A stretch of DNA of 64,000 nucleotides from positions 806,001-870,000 of the forward strand of contig NZ_JANIDY010000001.1 of NCBI RefSeq assembly GCF_026385525.1, read 5' to 3'. This document shows positions 4,326 through 62,645 of this stretch, in pieces. The stretch comes from Bombella pluederhausensis (GTDB lineage Bacteria; Pseudomonadota; Alphaproteobacteria; Acetobacterales; Acetobacteraceae). How positions within the stretch are numbered: the stretch's first letter is position 1; every line of letters begins with the position of its first letter. A program made the translations under genes and the position numbers. Under the pieces are notes generated by a model, which was not told the origin of the DNA, made no database searches, and saw only the letters and a list, made by a program, of their open reading frames with translations.

Positions 4326-5813
4326 TCAGGGCGTGGCACCACTCCCATGCGCCTGACGGCTTGGTGACCACACAGCAATATCACCAGAAGCAGTCTTTGG
4401 CGCTGCATGATCGGCCTGCCGGGCCGGGGACCATACGGCTACAGCAGATGGTGCTGATACTGACGCAGATGACGATTTTACCGATAATGTAGATGACGGG
4501 GTCAGATCACGTGATGCCGGAACAATCATCTGGCTGCCGCCGCCCGGTGCAATCTGATAGATTCCCAGAGCTCGAATCACTCGACCATCTGACCGCAAAT
4601 GGAACAGGCCATTCACGCCGATATAGCCTTTTGGCTGGGTCAGTGTCGCTACATCCAGCTTATTCTGACGAATCAACGCCCCGGCCAGAGCAGCCGCATC
4701 ATAGGCAAAGTCCGCTACCGGCGAAGGCTTCTGATGATAGACATTCTGGTAGCTCTGCACATAACCACTACGCTGGTGCTCATCAAACGCCACATACCAC
4801 GCTCCACGCAGGTCGCCCAGTTTGCCATCAAAGGCACGCCACAGCATGGGACCAAGGATACGGACCTGCGGAATGAGGAGCTGATCGCTCTTGAGTACTT
4901 CAATAACTCTAGCCAGACCCAGGCCAGTATCTCCGAGAAGCAGAGCATCAAAAGGCGGTGGAGTGACAGATGCCTCCTGATGATCTGCCGCACTGGACGG
5001 AGAGGCAGGCGCCGCTTCGCCTCCATTCTCATTCAACGGATCAGCAGCGGAAGGACCGTTATCCTGCTGCGCCCCTGACGTATCGGAGCTAGCAGCAGGT
5101 GCAGGAACAGACCTATGGCTCAACTGAGCCAGCTTCTGCGCAATATCATCTGCCTCACCATTATGAAAAACAATCTGCGGCACTTCCAGCCCCGCTTCCT
5201 GACAAGCCAGTGTCAGCCCCTCACCCATGGAATGCCCTAGAGCCGTATCGGGCAGAAACGCTGCAAAGCGCTTCCGACCATCCAGCCGGGCCGCATCCAC
5301 CAGACGACGCACCTGCTGCTCTGGCGTCAGCCCCATGACCCAGACACCCGGCCGGGCCTGCGAGACGTCACTCGTAAAGGCCAGCTCTGGCACATTGGCC
5401 GGCTGAAGAACGGACGCCACAAGCTGCGTATCGCCTGTCGTCAGAGGACCGAGCACGATCCTGTCCCCGGCATCCAGCGCCATCTGTGCCGCATGAGCCG
5501 GACCTTCTGGTGCAGCACTATCAAACACATCCATAGCAGGACTCTGACCTTCTGGCAGGGCCAGCCGGGCCGCATCCCGCATACGCTGCCCAATAGCCGC
5601 ATGAGAACCACTGAGAGGCACGATCAATCCCACACGGGCTGGCTTTTCAGCCGGTGCCGGCGGTGCGGCCGTTGGCGTTACCCCTCTGTCACCCTCACCA
5701 CTCCCGGAGCAGGCTCCCAGAAACAGAAAAATACCCGCCGCCAGCGTAGCCCAGCTGTTTCCTCTCTTGCCGAGCCCCCGCCTGTCACGGCTATAAAGGC
5801 CTGAGCGGCTCAT
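4326..5813 (-). CDS. LpoA/YraM-like penicillin-binding protein activator lipoprotein
   Basis: The 495-residue protein looks like an outer-membrane lipoprotein of the LpoA/YraM family, whose E. coli member stimulates PBP1A from the outer membrane. After a basic N-terminus a hydrophobic segment ends in the lipobox LGAC (GIFLFLGACSGSGEG). The body is a type 1 periplasmic-binding fold (VGLIVPLSGSHAAIGQRMRD, then LGPLTTGDTQLVASVLQ). A Ser/Ala/Pro/Glu-rich low-complexity insert sits in the middle (about residues 235-285). The C-terminus repeats AVWSPxRQA twice. I start at the ATG 11 bases from rsmI; a further upstream in-frame Met would run into the rsmI start. Pairing with rsmI is the yraL-yraM arrangement. 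Confidence 0.8.
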   Translation of the reverse strand: MSRSGLYSRDRRGLGKRGNSWATLAAGIFLFLGACSGSGEGDRGVTPTAAPPAPAEKPARVGLIVPLSGSHAAIGQRMRDAARLALPEGQSPAMDVFDSAAPEGPAHAAQMALDAGDRIVLGPLTTGDTQLVASVLQPANVPELAFTSDVSQARPGVWVMGLTPEQQVRRLVDAARLDGRKRFAAFLPDTALGHSMGEGLTLACQEAGLEVPQIVFHNGEADDIAQKLAQLSHRSVPAPAASSDTSGAQQDNGPSAADPLNENGGEAAPASPSSAADHQEASVTPPPFDALLLGDTGLGLARVIEVLKSDQLLIPQVRILGPMLWRAFDGKLGDLRGAWYVAFDEHQRSGYVQSYQNVYHQKPSPVADFAYDAAALAGALIRQNKLDVATLTQPKGYIGVNGLFHLRSDGRVIRALGIYQIAPGGGSQMIVPASRDLTPSSTLSVKSSSASVSAPSAVAVWSPARQADHAAPKTASGDIAVWSPSRQAHGSGATP

Positions 5814-5824
5814 TGAGGATAGCG

Positions 5825-6724
5825 ATGTCTGAGAAACCATATACTCCCCCCGATCACGGAACGTCTCCTTCTTCTACCGGGCAGCTCATGCTGGTGGCAA
5901 CGCCTGTCGGGAATCTTGCCGATATCAGCCAGCGTGCCCTTGATGCTCTCAGGATGGCAGATGCCATCCTGTGCGAGGACACACGTGTTACGACAAAACT
6001 TCTGCGCCATTATGGCATAAGCAACCAGCTTATCCCGCTTCATGACCATAATGAACAGGACCGTGCTCCCGCCTTGATAGATCGTCTACAGCAGGGGCAG
6101 TGTCTGGCTCTGGTATCTGATGCCGGGACCCCTATCGTATCCGATCCCGGTTACAAGCTCGTCCGTGCGGCGCAGGAGGCAGACATTCCTGTCACCTCCC
6201 TGCCCGGCGCCAATGCTGCCATCACAGCTCTCACCCTCTCCGGCCTGCCGCCCATTCCGTTCATGTTTCTGGGGTTCCCGGCACGGGGAGAAGCACGCCG
6301 CCACAGTTTCGCTGCCCTGCGCGCCGCAGAACAGGCCGGACTGGCCGCCACGCTTATCTGGTATGAATCACCTCATCGCCTGCTGGACACTCTTAAAACG
6401 CAACAGCAAGTCTTCGGTGCCGACCGCCCGGCTGCCGTAGGTCGGGAACTGACAAAACATTTTGAAGAAATGGTGCGGGGCACTGTGGCAGAGCTCATCG
6501 CTCATTTTGAAGAAACGCCACCACGGGGCGAAATCACCCTGCTTCTTGGCCCACCAGCCGCAGAAGACACCGGAGCGCAGGAGCTGGATCAGGCTCTTGA
6601 AAATGCGTTGGAAAGCCATTCAGTCAAGGATGCCGCAACTCTGGTTGCAGGAATCGTCAACCTACCCAAGCGGACCGTCTATAATCGGGCGCTGGAGCTG
6701 GCCAAGCAGAAAAAGAATCGTTAG
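5825..6724 (+). CDS. rsmI: 16S rRNA (cytidine(1402)-2'-O)-methyltransferase RsmI
   Basis: RsmI (YraL) is a SAM-dependent tetrapyrrole-methylase-fold enzyme that 2'-O-methylates C1402 in the ribosomal P site. The 299 residues include LMLVATPVGNLADIS, the LCEDTRVTTKLL segment, LVSDAGTPIVSDPGYKLV and SLPGANAAITALTLSGLP, all diagnostic. GAGG eight bases upstream supports the ATG at 5825; the in-frame TTG at 5813 is less likely. The gene is divergent from the LpoA-like gene with only 11 bases between start codons, so its promoter must lie inside that neighbour's coding sequence. It ends four bases into the convergent lolA stop region. Confidence 0.95.
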   Translation: MSEKPYTPPDHGTSPSSTGQLMLVATPVGNLADISQRALDALRMADAILCEDTRVTTKLLRHYGISNQLIPLHDHNEQDRAPALIDRLQQGQCLALVSDAGTPIVSDPGYKLVRAAQEADIPVTSLPGANAAITALTLSGLPPIPFMFLGFPARGEARRHSFAALRAAEQAGLAATLIWYESPHRLLDTLKTQQQVFGADRPAAVGRELTKHFEEMVRGTVAELIAHFEETPPRGEITLLLGPPAAEDTGAQELDQALENALESHSVKDAATLVAGIVNLPKRTVYNRALELAKQKKNR

Positions 6725-7350
6725 TCCTCATCCTTGGGCAGGATAAAGCTGGCCTCTGGGATGGTGACACCTGTCTGCACGTTGGAAAAATGCACAGCAG
6801 TCCTATGGCCCTGTGCATCCAGCACGGTCCAGCCTTTCAGGCTGAGCGGGTGCGTGGAGAAAAACAGCGTCATCTCCCCCTCACCCGGATTATCTGTTCT
6901 GGTCACACGCAGCTGTATTTCACTACCATGCTGCTCATAGCCCAGAATGGATACATCACCCGAAAAGCGAGGGTCTGGCCGTAGAAGCAACCCAAGCGGC
7001 GTATGATCCAGCGGAATCGTAGTGATCTGGCCAATGCTGCGATCCTGAAACACGACCTTGCCATCATTAGCAACGAGTAGAAGCGGGCTTGGCGGATCGT
7101 AGGAAAAGCGCATCCGGCCCGGCCGTTCCAAGACAACCGTACCTGTTGACGTACCATCCTGCTCCGTCACCTGCTCAAAACGGGCCTGAAAGCTCTTTGT
7201 CGCTGCAAGGCTGGATTCAATTTTGTGAATCCAGCCTTGCTGAGCCGGTGTCAGGGAAACGGATGCCTCTGCCGAATGATCCAGCGTGACCGAAGCCACC
7301 GCCAGAGCAAGGGCAACCCCACAGGCCATGACAATACGCCGCATGGTCAT
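6721..7350 (-). CDS. lolA: outer-membrane lipoprotein carrier LolA
   Basis: LolA carries lipoproteins through the periplasm from LolCDE to the outer membrane. The 209-residue product has a cleavable signal peptide (basic MTMRR, hydrophobic core, then cleavage near SAEASV) and LolA-type features: KSFQARFEQVT, GTVVLERPGRMRFSYD, PLGLLLRP and PEASFILP. The ORF extends 75 codons upstream into gshA, but AAGGAGAG sits nine bases before the ATG at 7350, which decides the start. It follows gshA by 16 bases. A second LolA-family gene, there a lipoprotein, lies at 58042-58689. Confidence 0.88.
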   Translation of the reverse strand: MTMRRIVMACGVALALAVASVTLDHSAEASVSLTPAQQGWIHKIESSLAATKSFQARFEQVTEQDGTSTGTVVLERPGRMRFSYDPPSPLLLVANDGKVVFQDRSIGQITTIPLDHTPLGLLLRPDPRFSGDVSILGYEQHGSEIQLRVTRTDNPGEGEMTLFFSTHPLSLKGWTVLDAQGHRTAVHFSNVQTGVTIPEASFILPKDED

Positions 7351-57348: not shown

Positions 57349-58038
57349 ATGGTCATGACACAGTTTTATGAAGAAATTATCTGGCAGGAAGACAAAAAGC
57401 TCTGCCCCTACCCCGATGCTCTGGATTTCATGCGCCAACAGGTGGAAGCCATTCATCAGAAGCAGGCCCCCCAGCGCCTTTGGCTGACAGAACACCCCCC
57501 TCTCTACACAGCCGGCACGTCTGCCAAACCGGAAGACCTCATCAACCCACACAATTACCCAACCTTCGAGGCTGGACGAGGTGGCCAATGGACCTATCAC
57601 GGTCCCGGTCAACGTATCGCCTATGTCATGCTGGATCTCACACGTCCGCATGGCCCTCTACCTGCACGGGACGTACGGGCCTTCGTGCAGATGCTGGAGC
57701 GCTGGCTCATTATGAGCCTGCAAGCCATGAATATAGATGCCTTCACCCGGGAGGGACGGATCGGCGTCTGGTGCTTTGATGGCCAGAGCGGACTGGAAGC
57801 CAAGATCGCCGCTCTTGGCATCCGTGTCACACGCTGGGTCAGCTGGCACGGTATTTCGCTGAACGTATCGCCCTCACTCAGCGATTTTGACGGCATCATC
57901 CCCTGCGGCATCCGAGATTACGGCGTCACCAGTCTGCAACGCTTCAACCCCACCTTGAGCATGGATGATGCCGATGCCGCTCTCCTCAAAAGCTGGACGA
58001 CCCTCTTTGGCCCCGTGACCCGTCAGACAGACTCCTGA
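57349..58038 (+). CDS. lipB: octanoyltransferase LipB
   Basis: LipB moves octanoate from ACP to lipoyl domains of 2-oxo acid dehydrogenases. The 229-residue protein has [40 protein letters not shown] (catalytic Lys) and [14 protein letters not shown] (catalytic Cys). Two in-frame ATGs (57349 and 57355) lie after an AGAGG; either could be used. The gene ends three bases before the convergent LolA-like stop. Confidence 0.95.
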
Positions 58039-58041
58039 CCC

Positions 58042-58689
58042 TCACTCTGGCAAGGTAAAGCTGCTCTCGGATACGGGCTGATTCTCCTGCACATCAAACA
58101 GAGAAAGCCCGAAATGATGATGACGGGCATCAACACCCTGTATGCCCACCAAGGTCAGCTTACCATGCACGTCAGAGAACTGAAGCGTCAACAGGCCCTG
58201 GGAGGGATTGTCGGCTTCCGCTACGGAAATCTGGAGGGATTCAGCACCACGGGAGACTTTGGTGACCTGCACCTCTTTCTCAAACCCGATGGGATGACGC
58301 AGCAAAAGACCCAGCGGATTACGCTTGAGGGACAAATGCGTCACCGCACCATCATCAGCGTTCCGCAGGACAAGGCGACCATCCCGTGCCACAGCCCGCA
58401 TGGCATGAGGTACCTCATACACCATCTCAAAACGGCCCGGCGCATAGGTAAATCGGCCATCACCCTGCTGCTGAGCTGGACCATCCTGCACAAAGGACGC
58501 CTGAAGGGATTTCAGCCCATTCAGATAGCTCTCGGCCCGATGGATGTCATGCCGATCAGCCGTGGCAAGATGGTCATACCCAGATGTGGCACAGCCTGAG
58601 AGGCCAAGCCCAACCACCGGGCCAGCAATCACACCACCCCAAAGCAGAAAGCCACCTGCAAGACGTTTCAGAAACTGTCCGTTTTTCAC
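58042..58689 (-). CDS. LolA-family lipoprotein (second LolA-like gene)
   Basis: The 215-residue protein resembles LolA across its length: LKSLQASFVQDG, PGRFEMVYEVP, PLGLLLRHP, EADNPSQGLLTLQFSD and SESSFTLPE align with the LolA at 6721-7350. Instead of a plain signal peptide it has a lipobox, GLSGCATSG, so it should be a lipoprotein. It may act as an outer-membrane lipoprotein receptor (the LolB job) or another carrier. The start is a GTG overlapping the bolA stop as GTGA, so the two genes are coupled. Confidence 0.82.
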   Translation of the reverse strand: MKNGQFLKRLAGGFLLWGGVIAGPVVGLGLSGCATSGYDHLATADRHDIHRAESYLNGLKSLQASFVQDGPAQQQGDGRFTYAPGRFEMVYEVPHAMRAVARDGRLVLRNADDGAVTHLSLKRNPLGLLLRHPIGFEKEVQVTKVSRGAESLQISVAEADNPSQGLLTLQFSDVHGKLTLVGIQGVDARHHHFGLSLFDVQENQPVSESSFTLPE

Positions 58690-58985
58690 GCCTGATTCTC
58701 CCCTTTCAGGGTCAGAGATAAGGCATGAAGCCCCGTCCTGAACTCCGCTGCCAGAAGGTCATGGACGAGTCTATGCCGCTCCAGACTTTTCATCCCATCA
58801 AAGCGCTGGCTGACCACATAAAGGTGATAATGGGTCTCACCTGCCTGTTCGGGCCCTCGGCTCTCCTGCGAGGCTGTCCGCATGGCGACATGATGGCTGT
58901 GCCGGGCGCTGTCATCCCGGATTTCCAGCACGGAAGGATTCAGCGCCTCCTCCAGCACTGCTTTCATACGGTCGGCTCTTTTCAT
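58686..58985 (-). CDS. BolA family protein
   Basis: A 99-residue BolA/IbaG-type protein with DDSARHSHH and THYHLYVVSQRFDGMKSLERHRLVHD, the class II KH-like fold with the helix-turn-helix-like His-Arg segment. BolA proteins work with monothiol glutaredoxins on Fe-S trafficking and in stress control. GGAAGAGA precedes the ATG at 58985; the longer frame adds 18 residues. It is divergent from the J-domain gene, the common alphaproteobacterial bolA/dnaJ/cobS arrangement. Confidence 0.9.
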   Translation of the reverse strand: MKRADRMKAVLEEALNPSVLEIRDDSARHSHHVAMRTASQESRGPEQAGETHYHLYVVSQRFDGMKSLERHRLVHDLLAAEFRTGLHALSLTLKGENQA

Positions 58986-59110
58986 TGCGTCTCTTCCATG
59001 CTTGCCCACGGGGTCACAGGTTCTGTCTGTCACATTCATAACAGGAATCTTTTCTCCTCATGAGAAAGGATGCTTGCATCCATGCCAGACCTCTCCCCAT
59101 ATCGTCCATT

Positions 59111-59722
59111 ATGCAACGCAAACCATCCAGACATAAAGCCTTCGCGCCAGACCCGGACGCTCCCCAGCAATGTTGCGACCACCCGGACTGCGACCAGCCC
59201 GCCGGCTATCGTGCCCCTCGTGGACGGGATAATCTGCGCAGCTATTACTGGTTCTGTCTGGAGCATGTCCGCCAATACAATGCCAACTGGGACTATTACC
59301 GGGGCATGACACCGGGGCAGATCGAGCGGCACCTGCGGGAAGATACGTCATGGCAGCGCCCCTCATGGAAGATGGGGACACCGGGCCACGATTCTGCACG
59401 ATCCTCCTTCACACTGGATGATCTGCATGACCCGCTGGATATTCTCAGAGGCCACAAAGCCCGCCCCTCACGGGAAGCTGAAACACGCCGCCACGCCCCG
59501 GCCGCTCTGCGGGAACCTCTGGCACAGCTTAATCTGGAATGGCCGACCACCATTGAGGTCATCAAGACCCGCTATCGTGTGCTGGCCCGCCGCTATCATC
59601 CTGATGCCAATCAGGACGATCCACGGGCTGAAGAACGCTTCAAGGTGATCGGCACAGCCTATGCCACGCTGCGCGATCATTTTGCCAACAGCATGGAGCA
59701 GGAAACAGCCAGTGCTGGATAG
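59111..59722 (+). CDS. J-domain protein (DnaJ-like), CobS-associated type
   Basis: The 203-residue protein has an N-terminal region, CDHPDCDQPAGYRAP and YYWFCLEHVRQYNANWDYY, with Cys/His that could bind zinc, and a C-terminal J domain with HPD: TRYRVLARRYHPDANQDDP. J proteins stimulate Hsp70; the partner client is unknown. The start is uncertain between 59060 and 59111; the shorter form resembles family starts. cobS begins 124 bases downstream, and this order is widespread in alphaproteobacteria. Confidence 0.87.
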   Translation: MQRKPSRHKAFAPDPDAPQQCCDHPDCDQPAGYRAPRGRDNLRSYYWFCLEHVRQYNANWDYYRGMTPGQIERHLREDTSWQRPSWKMGTPGHDSARSSFTLDDLHDPLDILRGHKARPSREAETRRHAPAALREPLAQLNLEWPTTIEVIKTRYRVLARRYHPDANQDDPRAEERFKVIGTAYATLRDHFANSMEQETASAG

Positions 59723-59846
59723 CTGTTTTGCCTTTCCCGCATCTTCCCATCTTTCAGGGTTTATGTAATCGTACCTGTAGAGTCCTTAATAAGATGGACA
59801 TATCTTCAGTCTTCCACATCACTCTTTCAATGACAGGAATCATGTC

Positions 59847-60815
59847 ATGGCTCTCCCTTCCACACAGTCCCTTTCCGAGGTTCTCCCCCAGACACCTGAC
59901 AGCCTGAAGCCCGCGCGGGAGCTGTTCGGGCTGGAACTGGACCTTGAAGTCCCTGTCTGGTCCCAGAAGACAGACCATGTTCCTGAGATTGACCCCGCCT
60001 ACCAGTTCGACCGGGATACGACCCGGGCCATTCTGGCCGGTTTCATGCATAACCGCCGTGTGCTGGTGCAGGGCTTCCACGGGACAGGAAAATCCTCCCA
60101 CATCGACCAGATCGCCGCGCGGCTGAACTGGCCCTGTGTCCGCATCAATCTGGACAGCCACATTTCCCGTATCGACCTCATCGGTAAGGATGCCATCACG
60201 CTGGAAGACGGCAAGCAGGTCACAGAATTCCGTGAAGGTCTCCTGCCATGGTGCCTTCAGAATCCGTGCAGCCTGATCTTTGATGAATATGATGCCGGGC
60301 GGCCGGATGTCATGTTCGTTATTCAGCGTGTTCTGGAGGCTAACGGTGCCCTGACCCTTCTGGATCAGAACCGTGTTATCCATCCTCACCCATCCTTCCG
60401 CCTGTTCGCCACAGCCAATACGGTTGGGCTGGGCGATACGACCGGGCTGTATCATGGTACGCAGCAGATCAATCAGGGCCAGATGGACCGCTGGAACATC
60501 GTCACCTCCCTGAACTATCTGCCCAAGGAGCAGGAAATCCGCATCATCAAAGCCAAGATGGGCGATGCTCTGGATGCCACACTCATCGGCCAGATGGTGG
60601 AGCTGGCGGACCTGAGCCGTGCGGGCTTCATGAATGGTGACATTTCCACCGTCATCTCCCCCCGAACAGTTCTCTCATGGGCCGAGAACATCACAATCTT
60701 CAACGATGTGCCGTTCGCCTTCCGTCTGAGCTTCCTCAATAAATGTGATGAAGCCGAGCGCAGCATCGTGGCTGAATATTATCAGCGCTGCTTCAACGCC
60801 TCACCGCTGGGTTAA
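59847..60815 (+). CDS. cobS: cobaltochelatase subunit CobS
   Basis: A 322-residue AAA+ ATPase of the aerobic cobalt chelatase CobNST. The Walker A site is QGFHGTGKSSHI (about 75-86), Walker B is LIFDEYDAG, and the sensor region is FRLFATANTVGLGD. GACAGGA precedes the ATG by nine bases. cobT follows after six bases. No cobN or other cobalamin gene is in the window, so the chelation partner must lie elsewhere. Confidence 0.94.
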   Translation: MALPSTQSLSEVLPQTPDSLKPARELFGLELDLEVPVWSQKTDHVPEIDPAYQFDRDTTRAILAGFMHNRRVLVQGFHGTGKSSHIDQIAARLNWPCVRINLDSHISRIDLIGKDAITLEDGKQVTEFREGLLPWCLQNPCSLIFDEYDAGRPDVMFVIQRVLEANGALTLLDQNRVIHPHPSFRLFATANTVGLGDTTGLYHGTQQINQGQMDRWNIVTSLNYLPKEQEIRIIKAKMGDALDATLIGQMVELADLSRAGFMNGDISTVISPRTVLSWAENITIFNDVPFAFRLSFLNKCDEAERSIVAEYYQRCFNASPLG

Positions 60816-60821
60816 GGTCTC

Positions 60822-62645
60822 ATGTCTGATCCGCACGAACTCTTTCGCAAGGCAATCTTTGCCACGCAGCGCGCCCTGAGTGGTCATCAGGATGTCCCCA
60901 TGACGCCCGCTCTGGCCTCTCTTGAGCGTGCGGCTCTTACCCCTGAGGACAAGACCTACATCCGAGGGGCCACGGATGCCGTGGCCCTCCACCAACGGCA
61001 TCATGACCCGGAGAAGCGCATCACCATCCCCGATGCGCAGACCCAGACCATCACCGATGGTATGGAACAGGCCCGCTGCGAGGTCTATGGAGCCCGCCAT
61101 ATGGCAGGGGTTCAGGCCAATCTGGAGGATTATCTGGGGCGTAGGCTCCACACTCTCAACAGTGCCAAAATGATCGAGCGGGATGACATGCCTGTCCCGC
61201 TCGCCTTGGAGCTGCTGACGCGAGAAGCCCTATCTGGCCGGAAACTGCCGGAAAGCATGACCGGCCCAGCGCTGGACCAATGGCGCCAGTCCCTCAGCCC
61301 AAAAGCTCGTGATGCTCTGGCCCGACTGGCTGACGTGCAGAATGACCAGACTCTTTTCAATGAGGCGTCCCGGCAGTTCGTAAAAGTCTTCACCATGAAG
61401 GAGGCCGATGAAAAGACGGATGAGCCGGACCCTTCAAAATCCCGTGGCCAGAGTCAGGAAGACAAGACAGACGGCGAATCCTCCGCTCCCGATCCTCAGG
61501 GGCAGGAAGAAGAAGACGGCACGACAGAGGATGCCGAGGCCGCCATCAGCGATGATTCGGATGAATCCGCCAGCGCAGAAGGCCTTTCCTCCGATGAGAT
61601 GGAAGCCATTCTGACGGAAGGCGAAAATGGCTACGAACAGCCTGCCGGTCCTTCCGCTCAACCCGAGGAAGAACGGGACTGTGTTGTAAAGAAGCTCGAC
61701 AGCTATCAGGCCTATACGCAGGAATTTGACGAGGAAGTCCACGCTAGCGATCTCTGCGACCCGACCGAGCTGGACCTGCTGCGTGAAAAGCTGGATGAAC
61801 AGCTCCAGCAGACTCAAGGTTTCGTCTCCCGTCTGGCGCATCGCCTGCAACGCAGACTTCTGGCGCAGCAGCAGCGCCGCTGGCATTTCGATCAGGAAGA
61901 CGGCATTCTTGATGCAGCCCGTCTACCACGCATCATCAGCAACCCGTCTCTGCCTCTTTCCTACAAGCAGGAAGGCAAGATCGACTTCCGTGATACGACC
62001 GTCACCCTGCTGATCGACAATTCAGGTTCCATGCGAGGCCGCCCCATCACCACGGCGGCCATCTGCGGCGACATCCTTGCCCGCACGCTGGAACGCTGCG
62101 GCATTAAGGTCGAAGTTCTCGGCTTCACCACACGGGCATGGAAAGGCGGTCAGAGCCGGGTGAAATGGAGCGAAGCGGGCCGCCCGAAAGAACCGGGCCG
62201 CCTGAATGATCTCCGCCATATCATCTATAAATCGGCAGACACACCGTGGCGGCGTGCCCGGCGCAATATCGGCCTCATGCTGCGGGAAGGACTGCTGAAA
62301 GAAAACATCGATGGTGAAGCCCTGCTCTGGGCATGGAAACGCCTGAAGCACCGCCCGGAACATCGCCGTATCCTCATGGTCATTTCTGACGGGGCACCAG
62401 TGGATGACAGCACCTCCTCCGCCAATGGCCCGGAATATCTGGACCTCCACCTGCACCGTGTCATTCACCAGCTGGAAAATGACCCGTCCGGGGAGCTGCT
62501 GGCCATCGGCATCGGGCATGATGTGACACGTTATTACGCCAATAGCGTAACCATCAGCTCTGCCGAAGACCTTGGGGATACCATGGTTGCCCAGCTCACA
62601 GCTCTGTTTGCACCATCAACGACCAGAAAAGGACGGAGGGGATAA
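60822..62645 (+). CDS. cobT: cobaltochelatase subunit CobT
   Basis: The 607-residue partner of CobS has an alpha-helical N-terminal part, a very acidic linker (about residues 190-290, Asp/Glu/Ser-rich) and a C-terminal VWA domain with MIDAS motif [14 protein letters not shown] (near 393-406) and later [17 protein letters not shown] before the ATG supports the start. The long acidic linker is normal for CobT. Confidence 0.93.

Follow-up and report, generated by a model that had tools for sequence, protein, structure and literature searches.

The window analysed here, a stretch of 64,000 nucleotides of Bombella pluederhausensis DNA, carries two genes of the LolA family, and one of them encodes a predicted lipoprotein. 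This lipidated paralogue lies at 58042..58689 on the minus strand, begins with GTG and encodes 215 amino acids, an assignment drawn from Pfam, BLASTP and an alignment of its relatives. Its product matches PF03548 (LolA) with 39.3 bits (gathering cut-off 23.6, E 7e-10). The signal peptide spans residues 1-32 (58594..58689, minus strand) and ends in LSG, the beginning of the lipobox LSGC (residues 30-33). Cys33 (58591..58593, minus strand) is the predicted lipidated residue, its column is unchanged in 30/30 best relatives, and Ala stands at position +2. A lipobox-like site is present in 88/90 distinct rows of the lipidated clade, 81 by the strict pattern; two rows, L103 and L117, fall inside the clade yet match no lipobox pattern. 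Across the 88 lipobox-like rows the +2 residue is Ala 71 times, Gln 13 times, Met twice and His and Gly once each, but never Asp, which is only a proxy for an outer-membrane location, the E. coli +2 rule for lipoprotein sorting not being proven for Acetobacteraceae. The rule is mentioned in the accessible portion of PMC4623201. The gene is under purifying selection, with dN/dS of 0.06-0.09 against three named Bombella, and because of these values and its conservation throughout the clade the reading frame cannot be a product of chance. Its closest named relative, in a scan of named genomes, belongs to Bombella dulcis (90%).

The soluble LolA partner (6721..7350, minus strand) has an ordinary signal peptide, with no lipobox found on inspection of its sequence, and scores 88 bits against PF03548; its dN/dS is 0.09 against one genome of the same genus. 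A direct BLASTP comparison aligns the two copies at 34% identity over 178 columns (E 5e-27), and they have in common the motifs NPLGLLLR/TPLGLLLR, EADNP/RTDNP and SSFTLPE/ASFILPK. The preliminary description of this DNA had reported two LolA-family genes, a lipobox on only one of them, and a shared PLGLLLR, ADNP/TDNP turn and SFxLP end. All of this is borne out, since both products exceed the Pfam cut-off and the copies are true paralogues. Neither reaches the cut-off of 112 bits for TIGR00547, the NCBIfam equivalog model of LolA, the lipidated copy scoring 31.2 and the soluble copy 65.4. As judged from sequence pattern, without a signal-peptide predictor, the conserved lipobox sets the lipidated copy apart from LolA proper, a soluble periplasmic protein with a type I signal peptide, and gives it the lipoprotein signal peptide expected of LolB. 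It has no match to PF03550 (LolB), as a Pfam scan to E 10 returned nothing besides LolA and a Cytochrom_D1 match below threshold. A 504-aa protein with a lipobox-like LGAC, possibly of LpoA/LppC type, is encoded at 4326-5840 (minus strand), one gene away from the soluble copy.

Directly upstream of the lipoprotein gene lies bolA (58686..59039, minus strand), with a 4-base overlap between its stop and the lipoprotein start; this GTGA overlap at 58686-58689 suggests translational coupling. The convergent neighbour on the other side is a gene of the lipoyl protein ligase A/B family (57349..58038, plus strand), which we take to be lipB, and a conserved J-domain protein gene follows bolA (59060..59722, plus strand). 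The J-domain gene and two further genes, presumably similar to cobS and cobT, extend over 59060-62645. The preliminary description had suggested looking for conserved pairing with bolA, and bolA, lipB and the J-domain gene all lie within 3 kb of the lipidated copy in 56/56 named loci. Elsewhere bolA is absent from beside it in three loci of genus g40, several other loci retain lipB alone, and the deepest lipidated copies have none of the three neighbours. In one genome with a single LolA (G100, L159/L229), that non-lipidated gene is convergent to lipB, in the place and orientation of the lipidated copy in Bombella. The place taken by the lipidated copy may be an ancestral one.

The second copy is limited to part of the family. 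At least one LolA match was found in 195/200 Acetobacteraceae genomes and at least two in 56/200, and in a second set of 150 Acetobacteraceae genomes 95 carried at least two copies and 55 a single one; the figures 56/200 and 95/150 are hand tallies of LolA copies rather than of lipoboxes, and not every copy was read. Copy number follows genus closely in the 150-genome set, where 22 of the 41 genera were two-copy throughout, 18 were one-copy throughout and one was mixed (40/41 uniform). The scan of named genomes used the single peptide pattern PSQG, which under-samples divergent members, and returned 56 loci, all in Acetobacteraceae: Gluconobacter (20), Asaia (8), Gluconacetobacter (8), Bombella (5), Saccharibacter, Neokomagataea and Novacetimonas (3 each), four genera with one each, and two loci without a genus. 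Acetobacter and Komagataeibacter are not among these loci, but the PSQG pattern may miss them, and we make no claim on these genera. Reduced genomes of genus g30 (1.9-2.1 Mb) retain one lipidated and one soluble copy. Exceptions to this arrangement are G139, with two soluble-type copies, G081, with one soluble copy and a fragment, and G080, where two lipobox copies but no soluble one were found. Seven soluble copies fit a loose lipobox pattern through a Cys in their signal peptide, and none fits the strict one. In G222 (L237/L258) and in Asaia prunellae (L087) the lipoprotein gene is split over two frames, perhaps through sequencing errors or decay.

Outside the family, 143 sampled alphaproteobacterial genomes, less three that belong to Acetobacteraceae, left 140, of which 124 matched LolA and 16 did not. 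Only G287 and G326 had two matches, and both copies in each have ordinary-looking N-termini. The preliminary description had offered the lipoprotein as the missing LolB of Alphaproteobacteria. For the class as a whole this was rejected, as 122 of the 124 matching genomes have one LolA and no lipobox was seen by eye in the 27 out-of-family loci read; what stands, for part of Acetobacteraceae, is the paralogy, the lipobox, the LolA fold and a set of residue losses in the direction of an acceptor.

Phylogenetic analysis bears on how the two copies arose. In a maximum-likelihood tree of 98 rows, from which L105, L095 and L210 were left out as long branches, 39 lipidated rows lie on one side of a branch (100/98) and 25 soluble partners group together (100/97). 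These two sets form a joint group (100/98) with three soluble partners of the deeper lipidated copies; support for uniting those three with the other soluble partners in one clade is 54/65, and the outgroup branch is weak (83/15). A quick tree of 101 rows recovered the same groups, nested within the single-copy LolAs of Acetobacteraceae with modest support (82). The simplest reading of these trees is one lolA duplication within Acetobacteraceae, followed by lipidation of one copy. A mirror-tree comparison, with lipB and the J-domain gene as controls and all four proteins available for 25 of the 30 pairs supplied, gave no significant sign that the two copies co-evolve beyond what species divergence accounts for (partial r 0.154, with 239/2000 permutations as high).

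Modelling of both proteins, proposed as a check in the preliminary description, points to a LolA fold in each. The AlphaFold model of the mature lipoprotein (pLDDT 89.7) is closest to Ehrlichia LolA 9c89 (Z 18.7, 167 aligned residues, rmsd 2.8), and that of the soluble LolA (pLDDT 91.6) to Rickettsia LolA 8veh (Z 20.3). Judged by its model, the lipidated copy keeps the open-barrel fold of LolA. A LolB-like global fold was considered and rejected, because both models score lower against E. coli LolB 1iwm than against LolA, at Z 9.7 for the lipoprotein and 11.1 for the soluble protein, and the lipidated copy is thus no more LolB-like than its partner. The protruding beta3-beta4 loop of LolB is absent, a three-residue turn (62-64) being modelled instead, and the alignment contains no insertion relative to LolA. 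In hhalign the lipoprotein profile matches E. coli LolA (E 8e-6) and gives no homology signal to E. coli LolB (probability 1.8). On sequence evidence, then, the lipidated copy is not a LolB.

The two copies also differ in residues of the lipid pocket. Sites are numbered here after the window lipoprotein, with equivalents taken from an added alignment of E. coli LolA only, since E. coli LolB appeared misaligned by MAFFT. Met89 (58423..58425, minus strand) stands at the site of Trp49, where Phe occurs in 25/25 paired soluble rows, 21/21 other Acetobacteraceae LolA rows and 9/14 outgroup rows and where 0/41 lipidated rows are aromatic. Ile183 (58141..58143, minus strand) stands at the site of Phe140, which is Trp in 25/25, 21/21 and 14/14 of the same soluble groups; a single lipidated row (1/41) is aromatic there, with Phe. 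At site 108 (F68) an aromatic residue is found in 46/46 soluble Acetobacteraceae rows, 9/14 outgroup rows and 6/41 lipidated rows. Ala83 (58441..58443, minus strand) replaces the lid latch Arg43. Arg or Lys fills this site in every soluble row (25/25, 21/21 and 14/14) and is lost in 31/35 lipidated rows of the main clade, an R43-type Arg being retained in the other 4/35 and in 6/6 deep lipidated rows. A regex count over the 90 distinct lipidated rows found 84 readable at this site, 11 with Arg and one with Lys. The trend is opposite at site 145, where 24/25 paired soluble rows have Phe or Tyr, as do 3/21 other Acetobacteraceae rows, namely the three deeper soluble partners. Averaged over the core, Phe plus Trp amounts to 5.4 in main-clade lipidated copies, 4.7 in deep lipidated copies, 8.1 in soluble partners, 6.4 in other rows and 7.2 in the outgroup, and totals of Leu, Ile, Val and Met are nearly equal across groups (39.0-42.0). 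The C-terminal F-x-x-P end is found in 23/35 main-clade lipidated rows and 17/25 paired soluble rows, and the C-terminus is shortened in 6/35 main-clade lipidated rows, to 12-22 residues past Asp187 compared with 30-33 in the paired soluble proteins.

Work on the classical pair offers a way to read these differences. Small aliphatic residues in LolB and bulky aromatic residues in LolA are put forward as the basis of one-way transfer in the consulted text of PMC4623201; over the mature E. coli proteins, LolB has 8 Phe and Trp residues and LolA 16. The residue losses in the lipidated copies run in the direction expected for an acceptor, which is suggestive and not proof. Aromatic residues at the W49 and F68 sites do not define LolA, because outgroup LolAs are aromatic in only 9/14 rows at each, and these counts weaken the residue argument a little. 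Excerpts of PMC9457489 describe R43 as latching the lid of E. coli LolA and an R43L change as opening the pocket, the mutant protein accepting lipoproteins and failing in their onward transfer to LolB. Since R43L blocks that transfer, loss of the Arg is compatible with an acceptor from one side only. According to the part of PMC10368991 available, Xanthomonas does not conserve R43 in its LolA, and its LolB is expected to touch the lipid through aromatic residues.

As to the rest of the pathway, the genome has one LolC/E-type gene above cut-off, at 873824-875056 (minus strand) on the contig, 3.8 kb beyond the end of the window and some 9 kb away from the gene of the lipoprotein. It also encodes Lnt. 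A classical LolB was sought and rejected for this genome: PF03550 has no match in it or in any of 200 Acetobacteraceae genomes, and among 14 controls it matched only E. coli, a null that is weak for a divergent LolB given that a like search of this genome with PF03548 found only one of its two LolAs. With that qualification, these searches agree with the remark in the preliminary description that Alphaproteobacteria usually lack LolB; the check it proposed, whether every Acetobacteraceae genome has the lipoprotein, turns out negative by copy number. The consulted portion of PMC11784454 restricts LolB to gamma- and beta-Proteobacteria, and in this it disagrees with that of PMC4623201, which adds the delta class. 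PMC11784454 also states, in the text available, that Caulobacter LolA is able to replace both LolA and LolB, and it presents a lolA duplication with split functions as an origin of LolB that is "still theoretical". LolB-like proteins are described in Bacteroidota in the accessible text of PMC11885536 and PMC13103446.

Taken together, these observations lead us to propose, at somewhat better than even confidence, that the lipidated copy is an outer-membrane-anchored acceptor which derives from LolA and works like LolB. After a single duplication of lolA within Acetobacteraceae, one copy would have stayed a soluble periplasmic carrier, and the other would have gained a lipoprotein signal peptide and come to lie, as predicted, on the periplasmic face of the outer membrane. 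The anchored paralogue would use a lipid pocket of the same kind to receive lipoproteins from soluble LolA and would release them into the outer membrane, which is the task of LolB, giving the Lol pathway a two-protein ending. We infer its outer-membrane location, its acceptance of cargo from LolA and the insertion step alike. If the ancestral LolA was bifunctional, as in Caulobacter, an insertase activity that does not need the LolB loop could have passed to the lipidated copy. A broader form of the proposal is that Acetobacteraceae re-invented LolB: after duplication the carrier role would have gone to a soluble protein and the insertase role to a lipid-anchored one, independently of the beta/gamma LolB and without its loop, the pocket aromatics changing first and the Arg43 latch later, with the stages kept in living lineages. 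We hold this fuller account to be only just the better side of an even call.

Other functions are plausible for a tethered protein of this fold. The lipidated copy might carry another lipid or a special cargo, such as hopanoids, a lipid of the cell surface or a single class of lipoproteins, while a bifunctional soluble LolA alone completes general delivery. Proteins with the LolA fold do serve other lipids, LppX and LprF are among the structural neighbours of the soluble model, and NCBIfam contains a model for a flexirubin LolA2. The remodelled pocket would suit such a change of cargo, and 122/140 out-of-family genomes have just one LolA match. Against this, the conserved neighbours bolA, lipB and the J-domain gene include no biosynthetic gene for a special lipid, and the copy is retained even in the reduced genomes of 1.9-2.1 Mb, so that we regard this explanation as unlikely, if worth keeping in mind.

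A still smaller chance is given to a tethered back-up or helper, that is, a LolA which remains bifunctional, acts on the outer membrane and partly duplicates the work of the soluble copy. The preserved LolA fold, the F-x-x-P end, about as frequent in lipidated as in soluble rows, and a possibly bifunctional ancestor would all fit, but nearly every lipidated copy has lost residues that are fixed among the soluble LolAs of Acetobacteraceae, and the C-termini of six main-clade rows are shortened. It is very improbable that the lipidated copy stays in the inner membrane or is an envelope sensor like RseB/MucB, which have the same fold. RseB and MucB do appear among the structural matches, and the +2 rule was established for E. 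coli rather than for these bacteria; the protein nevertheless has one domain, matches LolA at Z 18.7 compared with about 10 for RseB/MucB, and never has Asp at +2, and none of the conserved neighbours seen is a sigma or anti-sigma gene.

Among the matches listed in a search of the open-access literature, none dealt with a lipidated LolA paralogue from Acetobacteraceae. The lipidated copy is a member of the LolA family that may work like LolB without belonging to the LolB family, and it suggests a second possible Lol architecture in Alphaproteobacteria besides the bifunctional LolA. It resembles an independent, naturally occurring instance of the step that supposedly gave rise to LolB. The origin of the terminal Lol step thereby becomes testable in a clade where duplication and lipidation appear to have occurred once and which offers single-copy, deep-paired and fully diverged lineages among cultivable and largely harmless bacteria (Gluconobacter, Bombella and others).

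Among known systems, the lipidated copy resembles LolA (PF03548) in sequence family, fold and the PLGLLL lid motif with its conserved Pro, and differs in being lipidated, in being a second genomic copy, in having lost pocket aromatics and, in most of the main clade, in having lost the Arg43-type residue. With LolB (PF03550) it has in common its lipoprotein nature, the LolA/B fold, a soluble LolA partner and a lower content of Phe and Trp than that partner (5.4 vs 8.1), but it lacks a PF03550 match, sequence homology to E. coli LolB and the protruding loop, and its sequence is far nearer to LolA. The LolB-like proteins of Bacteroidota, LolB1 and LolB2 of F. johnsoniae and LolB of P. gingivalis, are likewise lipidated LolA partners of LolA/B fold outside the beta- and gamma-Proteobacteria. 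They come from another phylum; F. johnsoniae LolB1 and LolB2 have a hydrophobic protruding loop, as described in the excerpt of PMC11885536, unlike the lipidated copy, and P. gingivalis LolB 9tpm reaches only Z 10.9 against the lipoprotein model. The bifunctional LolA of Caulobacter belongs to the same class as the proteins studied here, and by analogy the single-copy LolAs of Acetobacteraceae are likely to be its counterparts. In Caulobacter, as far as the consulted text of PMC11784454 goes, one soluble protein does both jobs, whereas the Acetobacteraceae described here have two copies, one of them anchored.
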